Assembly: GCA_018399285.1 (NCBI GenBank)
Contig: JAGYOW010000001.1
Span: 1-64,000 of the forward strand
Direction: 5' to 3'
DNA: 64,000 nt
DNA from: Desulfotignum sp.
GTDB lineage: Bacteria > Desulfobacterota > Desulfobacteria > Desulfobacterales > Desulfobacteraceae
The position numbers and the translations under genes are program-made. This document shows, piece after piece, positions 37,030 through 44,682 of the stretch. A model generated the notes under the pieces. That model had not been told where the DNA came from and made no database searches. It saw only the letters and a list, made by a program, of their open reading frames with translations. Within the stretch, counting starts at the first letter, position 1; every line of letters starts with the position of its first letter.

Positions 37030-37993
37030 TCGATTTTATCATTTCTTTTTGTCTTATCATGCGGGAGTCGTAGCTGGTTACCTTTAATCTCAAACAAATT
37101 GCACTATGGTGCCAGATCCAGACACCGCCCGCATCAACAACAAGAGTCCGCGTGTCAGGCCAACACAGGCGCGCCGGGGTCTTATCAATTTGAAAAGGGA
37201 CCGTGTCTTTGGCGAGATTCTGACTGGAACAGGGCAGAAAAAATGCTGTTACCGGTTCCCAGCCCCTGGATGTGCTTCATTCGGATCCTCTGCATGATCA
37301 GCGGTAGACAAGCCAAGCCGGCCTGGTGGTCCATCCAGGGGCGATACTGACCAAATAAACACCACTGGTGAACCGACAGTTCGTATTTCAGACCTGGATC
37401 AGGCGGGAACAGATCCGACACGGCCCGGGATCGTCATCCGGCTGGACAAAGATACCGGCAGTTGATCTTGTGGCGCGGAAGCCATCACAGCCTGAATTTC
37501 TGCAAAAAATTTAAATATCATCGGGTGAAGAAAACCTATCTGGCCCTGGTGTCAGGCGCGACCTGGCTGAGCCGGTGAAGTGGATCGTCCTGTCGGGCGC
37601 CATCAGCACAGCGCAAGCGGATGTGTGTGAATGTCATTTGGGCAGAACATGCCGGACCGGATAGCAGGTGCTGGCGGTTCCGATGACACGCGCCTGAAAG
37701 TATCGGTTCAGCTTTGCGCAATTAGAACCATCAGATCCGGGTCCATTTATGATATGGTTCCCGCTTTTGGAGATCATTGCCTATCAGTTTCGCAGGAATC
37801 GGACGGGTCGCCAGGCATATCCCCGGCATATGCTCCATGCCTGGCAGATCGAATTTTGTCATCCGTATTCAGCGAAGTGGAACTGCTGTGGATCCCCAGA
37901 CTTCATCTGTCTTAAAGCGCGTCACTGGCACACAGGGGTTCTGATGATGCACAAAAGGTGTGGGAACAACTGATTTCCGGCTGTCCGGTTTAA
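37030..37993 (+). pseudogene. RluA-family 23S rRNA pseudouridine synthase, frameshifted
   Basis: Blocks across three frames are KPAGLVVHPG-like near 37315-37345, the catalytic motif IVIRLDKDTGS near 37430-37465 (Asp in HRLDKDTSG), KTYLALVSG near 37525, THQIRVHLYDMG-like near 37725-37760, YPLL and RQAYPRHMLHAWQIEFCHP near 37810-37865. This is the RluC/RluD catalytic fold. Which uridines it modifies cannot be told. At least eight indels. Its 3' end is convergent with the SLC13 permease gene. Confidence 0.75.
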
Positions 37994-40324
37994 AACGGCG
38001 GCCACAGCATGGGCAGCAGAATCACGGAGATCACCAGAGAAATAAGGGTAATGGGAACGCCTACCTTGACATAATCCATGAACCGGTATCCCCCCGGACC
38101 CATGACCAGCAGGTGTGCCGGATGGGACAAGGGGCTGGCAAAACTGGATGATGCGGCAATGGCCACGGTCATCATGAGCAGATGCGGAGAAATTCCCAGT
38201 GTGGCAGACGCACTCAGGCCCACAGGGGTCATCAGGACCACCAGGGCTGCCATTCACTAGAATCGTCTGGGTCTGACTTTGAGCAGTGATGAAAAACAGG
38301 GCCCCCACCACCCATCTGGGGCCCATATCCCCGACCGTTGCAATCAAGGCCGATGCCCCCATCTGGGCGGCCCCGGTGTTTTCAATGGCCGCCCCTAAAG
38401 GCAGCATGGCTGCAATCAGAAAGACCACCTTCCATTCAATGGCCCGGTACGCTTCATCCATACTCAGGCATGTTGTAAGGACCATGCAGGTGGCGCCAGC
38501 CAGAGCGGCAATGGAAATGGGCACCAGTCCCAGCATGGCGCTGAGGATGACCGCCATCATGATGATAACGGCAATCCTGGCTTTTTCCAGGCGAGAGACA
38601 CAGGCCTGATTCATCAATGCGAAATCAGGACCCGGGCCGGGCTTCAGATTCAAAACTTTCATCGCTACCAGCAGGGCATCCCCGAACTGAAGCGGCAGGT
38701 CCTGCAGTCCGGTGCGAAAGGCCCTGCCTTTCCGCCAGACCGCCAGGACACTGATGCCGTAACGCTCCCGGAACATCAGGCTTGCCAGGGTTCTTCCGGC
38801 AATGGTGGTGCGGGGGGAGAGCAGCACTTCCGTGGCTCCGATCTGCTGGGATTCCAGCTCTTCAGATAACCGTGCGGACTGTTTAGTGATCTCAAGGTCC
38901 TGCAGTCCCTGCAAAATTGCCAGATCATGAAAAGACCCCTGAAGCAGGAGCAGATCTTCAGGCTGAATCACTTCATGGGGAACCGGCATCCAGATCAGGG
39001 CCGACTCCCGGATAATGCCGGCCACAGTTAATCCGAATGCATTTCCCAGCCGGCTTTCGATGAGATCATACGGCAGAGCCGTATCGGTGAGCACCGGCAG
39101 CAGCGCCATCTGCTTTTCCGCCGGTAACCGGGGGTGATCCGGTGTTATAAAATGCAATTGATCCACCACGTTGTTGTGCGCCAGTGTTTCCAGTGCGGCT
39201 TTTTCTCCTTGTAAAAATAACTGGTCGCCGGGCGCCATGCGATGAAGACGCAGATCCCTGACCGGTGTCTGGTCCGCAGTATACAGGGCTGTAACATGGA
39301 CCCGGTGTTCCCGTCGCAATCCACTGTCCGCCAAAGTAACACCCGACAGCGGCGATGCCGTGTGAACCATGGCATTTGCCATGAACAGATGTTGTGACAC
39401 CAGATCACGGACCTGTTCCGGTGGTTCGATCTTTAAATGCTGGCTGGCATGAATGCGCTGTAAATGCTCCGGACTGCCGTGAACAATTAACGTATCTTCA
39501 GGTTCCAGAACCTGATTTGGCGCCGGGGCCAGCATCATGACCCCTTTTCGCTGGATGGCCAGAACCGTCAGGTAAAGGGCGGATCCCAGGCGGCTTTCTG
39601 AGAGCGTGCGGCCCTGAAGCGGGGAGTTCTCTGGAATGCGGGTGGTAAAAATATGGGTGTCCAGCTGATAAGATGAACCAATGGCTTTGTGATAACCGGT
39701 TTTTGCCTCTCCGGACCGGGTGGGTAAGAGATGCCGCCCGATCAGGACCATAAAAACGATGCCGGCTGCCACAATGGCGCCTGTGATGGGAGTAAAATCA
39801 AAAATGGAGAAAGGTTCCAGTCCGGCGCTGCGCAGGGCATCGGTTGCCAGGATATTGGGCGGGGTGGAGATACTGGTGAAAGGGCCTCCCAGCAGGCACC
39901 CCAATGACAGGGGCATCAACAGCCGGGAGGGCGGATGCCCGCTGCGCCGGGACAGTTCCATGGCAGAGGGAAGCAGAATCGCGGCGACTGTCACAGTGTT
40001 GATGAGAGCGGACAGCAGGCTGGCAAAAAGCATCAGCGCCGCCATGAGTGTGACTTCACTGCCCCGTGCCAGCCCCTGAAGCGGCCGGCCCAGTTGATGC
40101 GCAATACCGGTGCGGGTGAGTCCAGCCGTCAGAATAAACAATGCCCAGACCGTGACCACCGCCGGGCTGCTGAACCCGGCCATTGCTTCCTGGGGCGTGA
40201 CCAGTCCGGTCAATGCCAGTGCCGACAGCACCATCAGCCCCACCAGATCCACCCGGAGCCAGCCGCCGATAAACAGGACAAATGCACAAAGAACAATACC
40301 CAGCAAAACATAGATGTCACCCAT
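37990..40324 (-). CDS. SLC13/DASS-type permease with two RCK_C (TrkA-C) domains, single-base frameshift near the 3' end
   Basis: About 777 residues. An N-terminal half-transporter (1-190: LINTVTVAAILLPSAMELSRR, FTSISTPPNILATDAL) is followed by two cytosolic TrkA-C-like domains (about 215-300 and 395-470, with EDTLIVHGSPEHL and EDLLLLQGSFHDL), then the C-terminal half (from about 565). This is the bacterial CitT/SAC1-like group that moves anions such as sulfate or dicarboxylates with Na+. The frame breaks near 38252 (ILVN then a G insertion); in the other frame it continues AALVVLMTPVGLSAS to MLWPPF and stop 37990. In a sulfate reducer, sulfate or organic-acid uptake are both reasonable guesses. 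Confidence 0.85.
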
Positions 40325-41681: not shown

Positions 41682-42719
41682 TTATAACTGGCTGTAGGCG
41701 CACCGGATCAATTGCTCAGTGGTCTGCCATGAAATGCATTCATCCGTGATGGACACCCCGTATTTCAGGGCACACCCGTCCCCGGGACAGTTCTGGCGGC
41801 CTTCAAACAGGTTGCTTTCAAGCATCAGGCCCATGATGCCTGAATTTCCTTCAAGGCGCTGATCCAGTGCACTTTTAAACACAAATGCCTGACCCGTGAA
41901 TTTCTGACCGGAATTGTCATGGGAACAGTCAATGATGAGGCGGTCCGGCAGGTGCTGCTGTCTGAGGATGGTCCGGGCCCGTCCCACGGAAACCGGGTCA
42001 TAATTCGGGGTGGCACCGCCCCGCAGAACCAGGTGGCAGAACGGGTTGCCCGTGGTGGACACCACAGAGGAACGGCCATCCGGGTCAATACCCAGAAAAT
42101 GCTGAGGAGAGCCGGCTGCCTGAATGGCGTTGACTGCGGCGGTGATCCGGCCGTCCGTGCTGTTTTTAAATCCCACGGGCATGGACAGACCCGACGCCAT
42201 TTCCCGGTGGGTCTGGGATTCTGTGGTTCTTGCTCCGACAGCCACCCAGGCAAGCAGTCCGGCAATATACTGAGGCGTGATAGGGTCCAGGATTTCCGTG
42301 GCCGTGGGCAGTCCTGTGTCATTGATGTCGATGAGCAGTTTTCTGGCGGTTTCCAGGCCGGCATTGACATTGTATGAGGCATCCAGAAACGGATCATTGA
42401 TCAACCCTTTCCATCCCACGGTGGTGCGGGGTTTTTCAAAATAGACCCGCATGATCAGGTTGATTTTGTCTGATACATCCCGGCGCAGGGCCATCAGTTT
42501 ATGCGCATATTCCAGGGCCGCTTCCGGGTCATGGATGGAACAGGGACCGGCAATGATCAGCAGGCGGTCCTCTTTTCCCGTCAAAATATCCGCCACCTCT
42601 TTTCTGCCGGAAACAACCGTGTGAGCGGCTGCATCCGTCAATGGCAGAACCTGCTTCATTTCCGTGGGGGATATCAGGGGTTTGAACTCTTTTACGTGGA
42701 TGTCAAAGGTTTTTTTCAT
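41682..42719 (-). CDS. 3-deoxy-7-phosphoheptulonate (DAHP) synthase, AroF/G/H type
   Basis: A 345-residue class I DAHP synthase (type I-alpha), the first enzyme of the shikimate pathway; it condenses phosphoenolpyruvate and erythrose 4-phosphate. Motifs are AGPCSIHD (57-64), RVYFEKPRTTVGWKG (about 91-105), VGARTTESQTHRE and the metal/substrate residues in DCSHDNSGQ. Length and N-terminal extension resemble E. coli AroF/AroG, whose N-terminus binds the feedback amino acid. ATG 42719 follows AAAGGAG by 8 bp. Upstream is a Tyr-codon leader and terminator, so expression is probably tyrosine-controlled and this would be the AroF-like, Tyr-sensitive isozyme. Confidence 0.95.
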   Translation of the reverse strand: MKKTFDIHVKEFKPLISPTEMKQVLPLTDAAAHTVVSGRKEVADILTGKEDRLLIIAGPCSIHDPEAALEYAHKLMALRRDVSDKINLIMRVYFEKPRTTVGWKGLINDPFLDASYNVNAGLETARKLLIDINDTGLPTATEILDPITPQYIAGLLAWVAVGARTTESQTHREMASGLSMPVGFKNSTDGRITAAVNAIQAAGSPQHFLGIDPDGRSSVVSTTGNPFCHLVLRGGATPNYDPVSVGRARTILRQQHLPDRLIIDCSHDNSGQKFTGQAFVFKSALDQRLEGNSGIMGLMLESNLFEGRQNCPGDGCALKYGVSITDECISWQTTEQLIRCAYSQL

Positions 42720-42772
42720 GGCGGTCTCCTTTGCCGGTCATCAGAACCCGCCGCCCAAAGCCTTTAAAACGC

Positions 42773-42809
42773 AAAAAGCCGCAGGCGGTGAGAGTGCCTG
42801 CGGCTTTTT
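42773..42809 (-). terminator. Attenuator terminator upstream of the DAHP synthase gene
   Basis: On the minus strand AAAAAGCCGCAGGC (42809-42796) pairs perfectly with GCCTGCGGCTTTTT (42786-42773) around a 9-nt loop, ending in a T-run. It lies 19 bp after the leader-peptide stop and 53 bp before the DAHP synthase start, so it would stop transcription before the gene unless prevented from folding. Confidence 0.92.
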
Positions 42810-42827
42810 GTTTGTTATGGAATCGGT

Positions 42828-42905
42828 TTATGGCAGCCCAGGCAGATGCGTATAATAATACACATAATAATATGCATACGATCTGACTGTGGCATTTAAG
42901 TTCAT
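42828..42905 (-). CDS. Tyrosine-rich leader peptide controlling the DAHP synthase gene
   Basis: A 25-codon ORF starting at ATG 42905, with GGAG 8 nt upstream (42917-42914), and ending in TAA at 42830-42828. Residues 9-20 read SYAYYYVYYYTH: seven Tyr codons, all TAT, in nine positions. The RNA can form three alternative stems. Stem 1:2 is CAGATCGTAT (42885-42876) with ATACG-C-ATCTG (42853-42843), and encloses the Tyr codons. Stem 2:3 is TGCCTGGGC (42844-42836) with GCCGCAGGCA (42804-42795). Stem 3:4 is the terminator. A ribosome stalled at Tyr codons would favour 2:3 and read-through; one reaching the stop codon would cover segment 2 and allow termination. Confidence 0.88.
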   Translation of the reverse strand: MNLNATVRSYAYYYVYYYTHLPGLP

Positions 42906-42966
42906 TTAAAAATCTCCATTGAAGTTTATTCACCTAAACCATATTTTTTGGGTTTGGTCAATGATT

Positions 42967-44682
42967 TTATTTTATAGCGTTCTCATTGATACATATCCGG
43001 CACCGGCGGCAATCAATCATGGGGCAGGCCGGGGATTGTTTTTCTTTTGCAGCCCGGTGCCATTCAGCGGCAAGAAATTTTTTGGAAATGCCTGAATCCA
43101 GAAAATCCCATGGTAAAGACGGCAGTGCCGGGCAGGGATCGGTATCCGCAATTCCGGAAACCGCCGGTATTGGTTTCGGGGTGTAAATGATCCGGCGGCA
43201 GTCATCCTTATGATGCCTGAACGCATAGGCCCATCCATGGTCACAGGCGGTTTCTATCACATCCGCTGTGTTTTGGTCTCCCAAAGACAAAAGCGCGCTG
43301 ATTTTTGCGGTTTTTACCGAAGGCAGGTTCACAATGACATTGGGCGTTTTTTTCAGACCCTGCCCGATGATGCCGATGCGGCGTTTCAGTGTGGCATCAT
43401 CGGTCAAAGCGGCCCATTGAAACGGTGTGGCCGGCTTGGGAATAAAGGCATTGATGCTCAGGGTGATGGTGCCCATGCGTTTCTGTTTTCTGGAAACCGT
43501 TAAAAACCGTTCTTTGATTTCCCGGGTCAGATTGACAATGGCCCGGACATCGTCATCGGTTTCAAAAGGCAGGCCGATCATGAAATACAGCCGAAGGTTT
43601 AAAATGTCTTTTGCCACCAGTTTTTCCACGGCCAGAAAAATATCGGGTTCGGTCATTTTTTTGTTGATAACACGGCGCATGCGTTCAGATCCGGCTTCCG
43701 GCGCAATGGTGGCGGTTTTAACTTTGGATTGGTGCAGCAGATCGATCATGGGGTCATCGAGTTTGTCGGCCCGCAGAGAGGAAAACGACAAAGAAAATCC
43801 ATGGTCCGTGCCATATTCACAGATGTCGGCAATGTCCGGATGATCCAGGATGGCGGAGCTCACCAGGCCGATTTTCCGGGTGTTTCCCGACGCCTTGTCC
43901 ATGGCTTTCAATATGTTTTCTTTGGGATAGATCCGGGGGGGGCGGTAAATGAACCCGGCGGTACAGAACCGGCACCCATGGGGGCAGCCTTTGAGTATTT
44001 CCACCAGAAATTTGTCTTTAAACGCAGTCTGTGATGTCAAAACACAGGTATGGGTCTGGATATGATCCAGGTTTTCCAGAAACCGGACTGAAATTTTTTT
44101 AGAAAATGGCGGATGCCGGGCCGGTACATAGGCCCCGGGCAGATTGGTTTCCAGAATAGCCAGCAGATCGGTGCGATCAGGATATTGATGAAACAGGGAA
44201 AAGAATTCGTTGACCAGACATTCCGCTTCCCCCAGCAGAAAAAAATCCATGAAAGGGGCAATGGGTTCCGGATTGAGAAAACAGGCCACCCCGCCTGCGG
44301 CCACCAGAGGATGGAGGTGGATTCGATCTGATGACCGCAGTGGGATGCCTGCTTGTCTGAGTATGTCTGCCAGATGGATATAATCGTTTTCAAAAGAGAT
44401 GGAAAACAATATAATATCAAACCGTTGTAACGGAAGCCGCGATTCACAGCTGACCACCGCATCTTTTTTTTGCCGGAGGTCCGGCAGAAAAACCCGTTCA
44501 CAGGCAATGCCGGGTTCCTGATTGATCAGGTGATATACCCGCTGAAACCCTAAGTTGGACATGCCGGTTTTGTAGGTGTTGGGATAGACCAGGGCCACCC
44601 GGGCCAATCCCTTTCCCTGCTTGATGATAGCCCCTTTTTCAATCGGGGGCCCGTGAGACGGTCTGGATGACGGTGTCACCAC
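42967..44682 (-). CDS. B12-binding-domain radical SAM protein (TIGR03960-like)
   Basis: A 571-residue protein. An N-terminal cobalamin-binding-like Rossmann domain (about 28-170, ALVYPNTYKTGMSNLGFQ) precedes a radical SAM domain with Cys233, Cys237 and Cys240 in KGCPHGCRFCTAGFIYRP. A TIM-barrel end and a C-terminal Cys-rich tail (CPMIDCRRCRIC) follow, suggesting an additional iron-sulfur site. The family resembles the TIGR03960 group, often near ribosomal or cell-division genes; its reaction is not known. GTG 44682 lies 1 bp after the ftsZ stop, so it is the distal gene of the dcw transcript. Its stop is just upstream of the DAHP leader. Confidence 0.82.
   Translation of the reverse strand: MVTPSSRPSHGPPIEKGAIIKQGKGLARVALVYPNTYKTGMSNLGFQRVYHLINQEPGIACERVFLPDLRQKKDAVVSCESRLPLQRFDIILFSISFENDYIHLADILRQAGIPLRSSDRIHLHPLVAAGGVACFLNPEPIAPFMDFFLLGEAECLVNEFFSLFHQYPDRTDLLAILETNLPGAYVPARHPPFSKKISVRFLENLDHIQTHTCVLTSQTAFKDKFLVEILKGCPHGCRFCTAGFIYRPPRIYPKENILKAMDKASGNTRKIGLVSSAILDHPDIADICEYGTDHGFSLSFSSLRADKLDDPMIDLLHQSKVKTATIAPEAGSERMRRVINKKMTEPDIFLAVEKLVAKDILNLRLYFMIGLPFETDDDVRAIVNLTREIKERFLTVSRKQKRMGTITLSINAFIPKPATPFQWAALTDDATLKRRIGIIGQGLKKTPNVIVNLPSVKTAKISALLSLGDQNTADVIETACDHGWAYAFRHHKDDCRRIIYTPKPIPAVSGIADTDPCPALPSLPWDFLDSGISKKFLAAEWHRAAKEKQSPACPMIDCRRCRICINENAIK

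Follow-up and report, generated by a model that had tools for sequence, protein, structure and literature searches.

The putative leader lies in what we call the window, the whole stretch of 64,000 nt of Desulfotignum sp. DNA that was analyzed. It is a minus-strand element, flanked by a radical-SAM gene of the same strand, ending at 42967, and by a DAHP synthase gene running from 42719 to 41682 (Table 1). The gene after aroF is on the opposite strand, so the transcription unit looks like the leader and aroF alone. The radical-SAM protein (42967-44682, minus strand) has TIGR03960 as its top NCBIfam match, at 345.8 bits, under the cut-off of 462.3. Also on the minus strand is an 800-aa transporter-like ORF (37922-40324) with an apparent frame change near its C-terminal end. 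By eye, a plausible hydrophobic C-terminus for it is found in an overlapping ORF in another frame (37990-38253, minus strand).

The leader ORF begins with an ATG at 42905-42903, ends with a TAA at 42830-42828 and encodes the peptide MNLNATVRSYAYYYVYYYTHLPGLP. Each of its seven Tyr codons is TAT. A preliminary description of this DNA had proposed a 25-codon leader with a good ribosome site and seven Tyr codons at residues 10-18, and the sequence agrees. Across the six frames of the window, nine-residue segments with at least 5 Tyr occur in this leader only (six, overlapping). Throughout the source assembly the leader is also the sole site of TAYTAYTAYN{0,6}TAYTAY, the one codon arrangement searched, with two overlapping matches. 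Two hallmarks of attenuators are found here, a run of end-product codons (7 Tyr in 9 residues) and a short ORF in the 5' leader that, with its ribosome site, appears translatable.

Table 1. Features of the aroF leader region, in order of transcription
Feature	Position	Strand	Basis or remark
Probable -35 box TTGACC	42956..42961	-	TTGAC in 24/24 alignment rows
-10-like hexamer TTTAGG, 17 nt from the -35 box	42933..42938	-	inferred; block similar in most of 24 rows; poor consensus match
Shine-Dalgarno GGAG of leader ORF	42914..42917	-	ends 8 nt 5' of ATG
Putative leader ORF	42828..42905	-	25 codons and stop; Tyr codons 10, 12-14, 16-18
Arm 1 (pairs with arm 2; holds first Tyr codon)	42876..42893	-	inner part conserved, outer not
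Arm 2 (leader codons 18-24; partner of arm 1 or of arm 3)	42836..42853	-	folding and alignment
Arm 3 (antiterminator partner; overlaps terminator 5' half)	42795..42804	-	2:3 duplex -18.0 kcal/mol; swap test, 114 genomes
Terminator hairpin 3:4, 14 bp, then GCGTTTT	42773..42809	-	sequence, folding; 623/627 cells paired in 49 distinct rows
Type I-alpha (aroF-type) DAHP synthase, presumed controlled gene	41682..42719	-	345 aa; TIGR00034 464 bits, PRK12755 493 bits

The RNA offers three mutually exclusive stems. Stem 1:2 pairs CAGATCGTAT with ATACG-C-ATCTG, and the minimum free energy fold lengthens it outward by CAG/CTG and GCC/GGC. Stem 2:3 pairs TGCCTGGGC with GCCGCAGGCA and leaves a single bulged C. 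Stem 3:4, the terminator, pairs AAAAAGCCGCAGGC with GCCTGCGGCTTTTT over 14 bp and is 53 nt from the aroF start codon. Coordinates and folding both match the stems and 14-bp terminator first proposed; the T5 assigned to the terminator's end lies within the stem. A 171-nt RNA folds at -52.5 kcal/mol, against -32.9 +/- 4.0 in dinucleotide shuffles (z -4.87; 0/200 as good). As modeled, the RNA has an intrinsic terminator and an overlapping, mutually exclusive antiterminator, the pair expected of an attenuator. A simple terminator scan left the minus-strand hairpin unflagged, since the T5 counts as part of the stem and GCGTTTT comes next, and listed the plus-strand reading instead. The hairpin at 42771-42811 is also terminator-like on the plus strand and may work in both directions.

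Promoter elements were sought in an alignment of 24 of the 72 leaders then collected. The conserved TTGAC box favors a transcription start upstream of the leader ORF, which we infer. The rival to such a start is a promoter-like site inside the leader (42895-42867), listed by a consensus scan that did not list the TTGACC box at 42956..42961.

Ribosome blocks were simulated with an assumed footprint reaching from 15 nt before to 12 nt after the A-site codon's first base, and with RNA polymerase just before arm 4. Without a ribosome, simulated stem 1:2 forms at 0.92. A block at Tyr10, 12, 13 or 14 leads instead to stem 2:3, at 0.96, 0.96, 0.95 and 0.88, so the antiterminator is freed in the simulation when the RNA is folded with a block at the Tyr codons, a check suggested in the preliminary description. 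Blocks at Tyr16, 17 and 18 give 2:3 at 0.70, 0.96 and 0.38, with those at Tyr16 and Tyr18 weakening it. With a simulated ribosome at the stop codon neither 1:2 nor 2:3 forms. In the full-length RNA, terminator 3:4 prevails in every simulated state, and the switch must therefore be kinetic and decided during transcription. A kinetic decision is usual for attenuators.

The element is very probably a ribosome-mediated transcription attenuator that ties aroF expression to charged tRNA-Tyr. Transcription would start just upstream of the leader ORF. When Tyr-tRNA is plentiful, the ribosome would reach the stop codon and cover arm 2. Arms 3 and 4 would then form the terminator, and RNA polymerase would halt before aroF. 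When Tyr-tRNA is scarce, the ribosome would stall at the first Tyr codons and cover arm 1, freeing arm 2. The freed arm 2 would pair with arm 3 before arm 4 is made, no terminator would form, and aroF would be transcribed.

The terminator/antiterminator logic alone would fit a protein-binding or small-molecule riboswitch (T-box or other) that works without a ribosome. Searching the whole window against Rfam returned 0 families at the gathering score, and a translated codon run would explain the conservation. We regard the riboswitch reading as highly improbable. For the 271-nt stretch all Rfam matches were far below threshold, the best at 23.8 bits against 70. The amino-acid leader families were not reached either (Thr_leader 18.3 against 55 bits, Leu_leader 11.9 against 50).

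Relatives were compared for Tyr codons and stems, whose absence from close relatives would, by the preliminary description, count against the attenuator. An aroFGH-type gene was found in 76 of 116 relatives' genomes and in 117 of 291 genomes of the class, the second set overlapping the first. The first set covers 76 of 79 places, leaving out G059 and the fragments G035:C529 and G067, which lack the gene start; the second match in G227 and the matches in G451 and G475 were also left out. A leader was scored as an ORF with at least 5 aromatic residues in 12, and 120 of 138 upstreams qualify. Four of these were dropped as lacking the family pattern, two of the main type (G112, G184) and two of the second type (G160p, G258p). 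An aromatic leader thus precedes 116 of the 124 main-type aroF genes of the class (118 by score, two implausible ones dropped), and the other 8 have no recognizable leader. Tyr codons are present in all 116 leader cores. A terminator follows in 114 of the 116, 5-72 nt from the stop codon (median 20); G153 and G191 have none after the leader at the threshold used. Together with the simulated blocks, which free the antiterminator, these counts uphold the proposal that attenuation logic precedes this DAHP synthase gene. Shine-Dalgarno-like stretches are visible before most of the listed relatives' leaders (by inspection, uncounted).

The score separates leaders from chance. At thresholds of 5, 6, 7 and 8 aromatics in 12, the first 76 upstreams give 72, 71, 66 and 51 leaders, against 9-19, 2-6, 0-2 and 0-1 of 76 in five dinucleotide-shuffle sets. 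Second-type or low-identity genes of the class, about 48-57% identical to the window's protein, lack a leader in 12 of 14 cases, the other two being dropped matches. In other classes 5 of 6 second-type genes lack one and the sixth has a weak match. Overall, 17 of 20 such homologues are without this ORF and 3 give weak matches.

Outside the class, the phylum search examined 37 of 40 places and found a credible leader in 8 of 31 main-type upstreams. The eight form two families (6 in f104, 2 in f96), and two weak matches are uncounted. Among named genomes, restricted to the best 80 of 584 relatives, family-like leaders occur in 13 of the 14 loci L077-L090, and two Geomonas loci have no leader. 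The titles of these 14 are Desulfo-named, Deltaproteobacteria or Pseudomonadota, and several of the 80 are the same records as genomes already in our sets. Thirteen other scan matches among named genomes were judged unrelated, including a short ORF common to four Chlorobiaceae. Far outside Desulfobacterota, the Latescibacterota locus L109 has a family-like aromatic leader, VKTSAAYRYFYFYFYYAFAERGER, which begins with GTG and lies 76 nt upstream of its DAHP synthase gene.

The 2:3 duplex between leader end and own terminator 5' arm has a mean of -18.9 kcal/mol in 114 genomes and runs from -31.0 to -6.0. Exchanging arms between genomes gives a mean of -17.5, and 0 of 20,000 permutations were as low as the own pairing in this test, which ignores relatedness. 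For the window alone, arms from other genomes give a mean of -19.0, and its own duplex, at -18.0, is no better. When leader ends are recoded synonymously the average is -12.5 kcal/mol, and 65 of 114 natural ends rank in the best 5 of 100 recodings. The wobble base of a conserved Pro codon faces its predicted arm 3 partner as T-A in 62 leaders, T-G in 17, C-G in 15 and G-C in 3, and is unpaired in 7 (104 leaders; 10 of the 114 were skipped, being without that codon). In these predicted duplexes, which lean towards pairing, the Pro-codon wobble base covaries with its arm 3 partner.

Pairing was also counted in an alignment of 50 leaders hand-picked from the window's family (49 distinct), which is part of that family. 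All 294 cells of the 2:3 core are paired, and 3:4 is paired almost as completely (Table 1). Both stems vary little within the family, so these counts say little by themselves, and since the 2:3 core hardly varies there, the covariation comes from between families. For stem 1:2 in the window's form, 576 of 784 cells are paired, and its inner part alone is conserved.

These data bear on a reading in which the product of the ORF is a small aromatic (membrane) peptide with a function of its own, and the hairpin serves simply as the terminator of the upstream gene. That gene is on the same strand and ends at 42967, so the hairpin could terminate its transcript. Against this, synonymous choice in the last codons favors pairing with the terminator arm, RNA arms coincide with the conserved residues TDR and LP, and the terminator sits a median 20 nt past the ORF in 114 of 116 genomes. 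A peptide function of this kind is highly improbable.

The aromatic core contains Tyr in all 116 leaders, Phe in 111 and Trp in 50, with all three in 50. The window's element belongs to a Desulfobacterota leader family whose run is usually Phe and Tyr, often with Trp, and whose Phe and Trp codons are gone in the window's clade. Tyr-only cores number 5 of 116 and come from two genera: the window's genome (G000), G004, G009 and G011, and G276 of another genus. Nearly Tyr-only are G038, G148 and G152, with one or two Phe, and G485 and G522 of another class, with six or five Tyr in a row. Such runs before aroF in another class of the phylum are those of L269 (six consecutive Tyr codons, NSYYYYYYAFGLPAAG) and L266 (five, NSYDYYYYYAFGLPAAG). 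The leader of Desulfotignum S09.Bin188, a genome of the window's genus, has Phe, Tyr and Trp codons. A midpoint-rooted tree of 36 proteins sets the four Desulfotignum proteins apart by a branch with support 92/71 and nests them in a genus whose other eight tree members have Phe, Tyr and Trp codons. The simplest history is therefore that Phe and Trp codons were lost there. The read-out of an aromatic attenuator seems to have narrowed to Tyr in the window's clade, judging from these sequences, and G276 looks like a second case of such narrowing.

An alternative is that the leader is an attenuator responding to aromatic starvation in general. The dominance of Tyr would then be incidental, a slow ribosome anywhere in the run would suffice, and the missing Phe and Trp codons would reflect drift of no regulatory consequence. 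The mixed composition of most leaders in the family fits this. So does the enzyme: the residue aligned to AroF G212 and AroG S211, which we take to set Tyr or Phe sensitivity, is Gly in the window's protein and invariant in all 54 full-length proteins aligned, untied to leader composition. The idea that leader composition tracks the enzyme's effector site was accordingly rejected. On the other side, the nearest solved relative of the window's enzyme is the Tyr-sensitive E. coli AroF at 398.7 bits, a small margin over the Phe-sensitive AroG at 391.7, and the window's enzyme has Gly where AroF has G212. The window's seven aromatic codons are all Tyr, with Phe and Trp absent, as in the three closest genomes and G276, and losing Phe and Trp codons should abolish a Phe or Trp response whatever the cause. 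We consider the general sensor unlikely, and favor an attenuator responding to charged tRNA-Tyr. The original statement that the switch is read out by Tyr stands for the window and its closest relatives and does not extend to the family, where leaders are mostly mixed.

The mechanism itself is classical. The E. coli pheL-pheA and trpL-trp attenuators have a leader ORF, alternative stems and a terminator. The window shares this layout with them, and they differ from it in reading Phe or Trp, as PMC11802643 describes them. E. coli aroF itself is repressor-controlled. Attenuation of E. coli aroF-tyrA was once hypothesized (Camakaris 1980, as cited in PMC8632094 and PMC2659441). The nearest precedent found in the accessible literature is the aroR-aroF attenuator of C. 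glutamicum, which has a Phe-Tyr-Phe leader and a reported Phe response (Neshat 2014; PMC11802643, PMC4046766). There, as in the window, a leader peptide precedes a DAHP synthase gene and stalling would occur at aromatic codons. The C. glutamicum system differs in its phylum and in its reported response to Phe rather than Tyr. The window's leader, with seven Tyr and no Phe codon, is not of the aroR type.

In Acholeplasma, uORFC-13-1 is likewise a uORF with a terminator before aroF, and it differs in having Phe (at least one codon), in being described from Acholeplasma and environmental sequences only, and in being a separate RNA motif (PMC8632094). Attenuators have also been predicted before tyrA operons, including Vibrio aroA(I-alpha, Tyr)-tyrA and Desulfovibrio vulgaris (PMC1173090, Table 7), and before Shewanella aroF (PMC2659441). 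Like the window, these would involve attenuation of a Tyr-type DAHP synthase or of Tyr operons. They are computational lists, compared here by description, and in the accessible text give no leader peptide or codon content. An actinobacterial survey reports that Phe and Tyr operons are not preceded by a conserved RNA structure (PMC1262725). Among the matches listed from open-access full texts, a body that leaves most subscription papers outside, we found no description of DAHP synthase leaders in Desulfobacterota or of a Tyr-only leader with its codons shown. The aroF-leader precedents described in these sources (C. glutamicum aroR, Acholeplasma uORFC-13-1 and the Shewanella prediction) mean that the kind is not new. 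What the family offers is a natural series of leaders, with the same kind of switch and the same gene, in which sense codons range from Phe/Tyr/Trp to Tyr only. The series opens a direct way to study the evolution of attenuator specificity and to see if the order of codons determines the amino acid sensed. The findings also suggest a way for bacteria possibly devoid of TyrR to control entry into aromatic synthesis, and the leader may offer a Tyr-responsive RNA part.

A second DAHP synthase, present in some of these genomes, has a putative leader of its own. A PF00793 search of 15 genomes found nine with a long protein (open frames 627-663 aa), a 622-aa fusion of DAHP synthase with prephenate dehydratase and ACT. 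The fusion occurs in 55 of 147 genomes of the class; searches did not find it in G005, in G004 (~87% complete) or in the assembly of the window (86.5% complete), and the last two, being incomplete, may still carry it. Upstream of the gene, a Phe-rich leader whose end reads FGRFFFFRSVHPV or a variant of it is present in 28 of 30 fusion loci (L170, L173, L174, L175, L178, L180, L306-L335). Of the two loci without it, one has just 117 nt of upstream sequence and the other, L317, has 450 nt. The runs are mostly Phe alone, and a few also have Tyr (e.g., G052, G055). A 37-base pattern of this leader is exact in 6 of 13 same-genus genomes and has 2 mismatches in a seventh. In the fusion leader of G009, the sole one simulated, a terminator is present, and the antiterminator is kept under Phe blocks and disrupted by a ribosome at the stop codon. 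It also forms without a ribosome, so stem 1:2 competes poorly there.

G009 and G011 each combine a Tyr-only aroF leader with a Phe-only fusion leader, and a pair of attenuators may divide pathway entry according to end product. In aroF leaders, the Tyr share of Phe plus Tyr is 0.644 with the fusion and 0.579 without (61 and 55 genomes, p 0.03; partial fusion matches in G025, G040, G069 and G276 scored as present). The difference has p 0.06 at 90% completeness and p 0.11, not significant, for genus means; an earlier partial comparison of 36 with 8 genomes gave p 0.027. As a tentative proposal, with chances a little short of even, the codon content of an old aromatic leader may be an evolvable dial. 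A Phe/Tyr/Trp 'OR' sensor would have been turned to Tyr alone, apparently twice (in the Desulfotignum clade and in G276). The fusion DAHP synthase would have been kept under a Phe-rich leader, and the two attenuators would divide shikimate entry between Phe and Tyr. By eye, two hairpins with T-runs follow the fusion leader in several loci.
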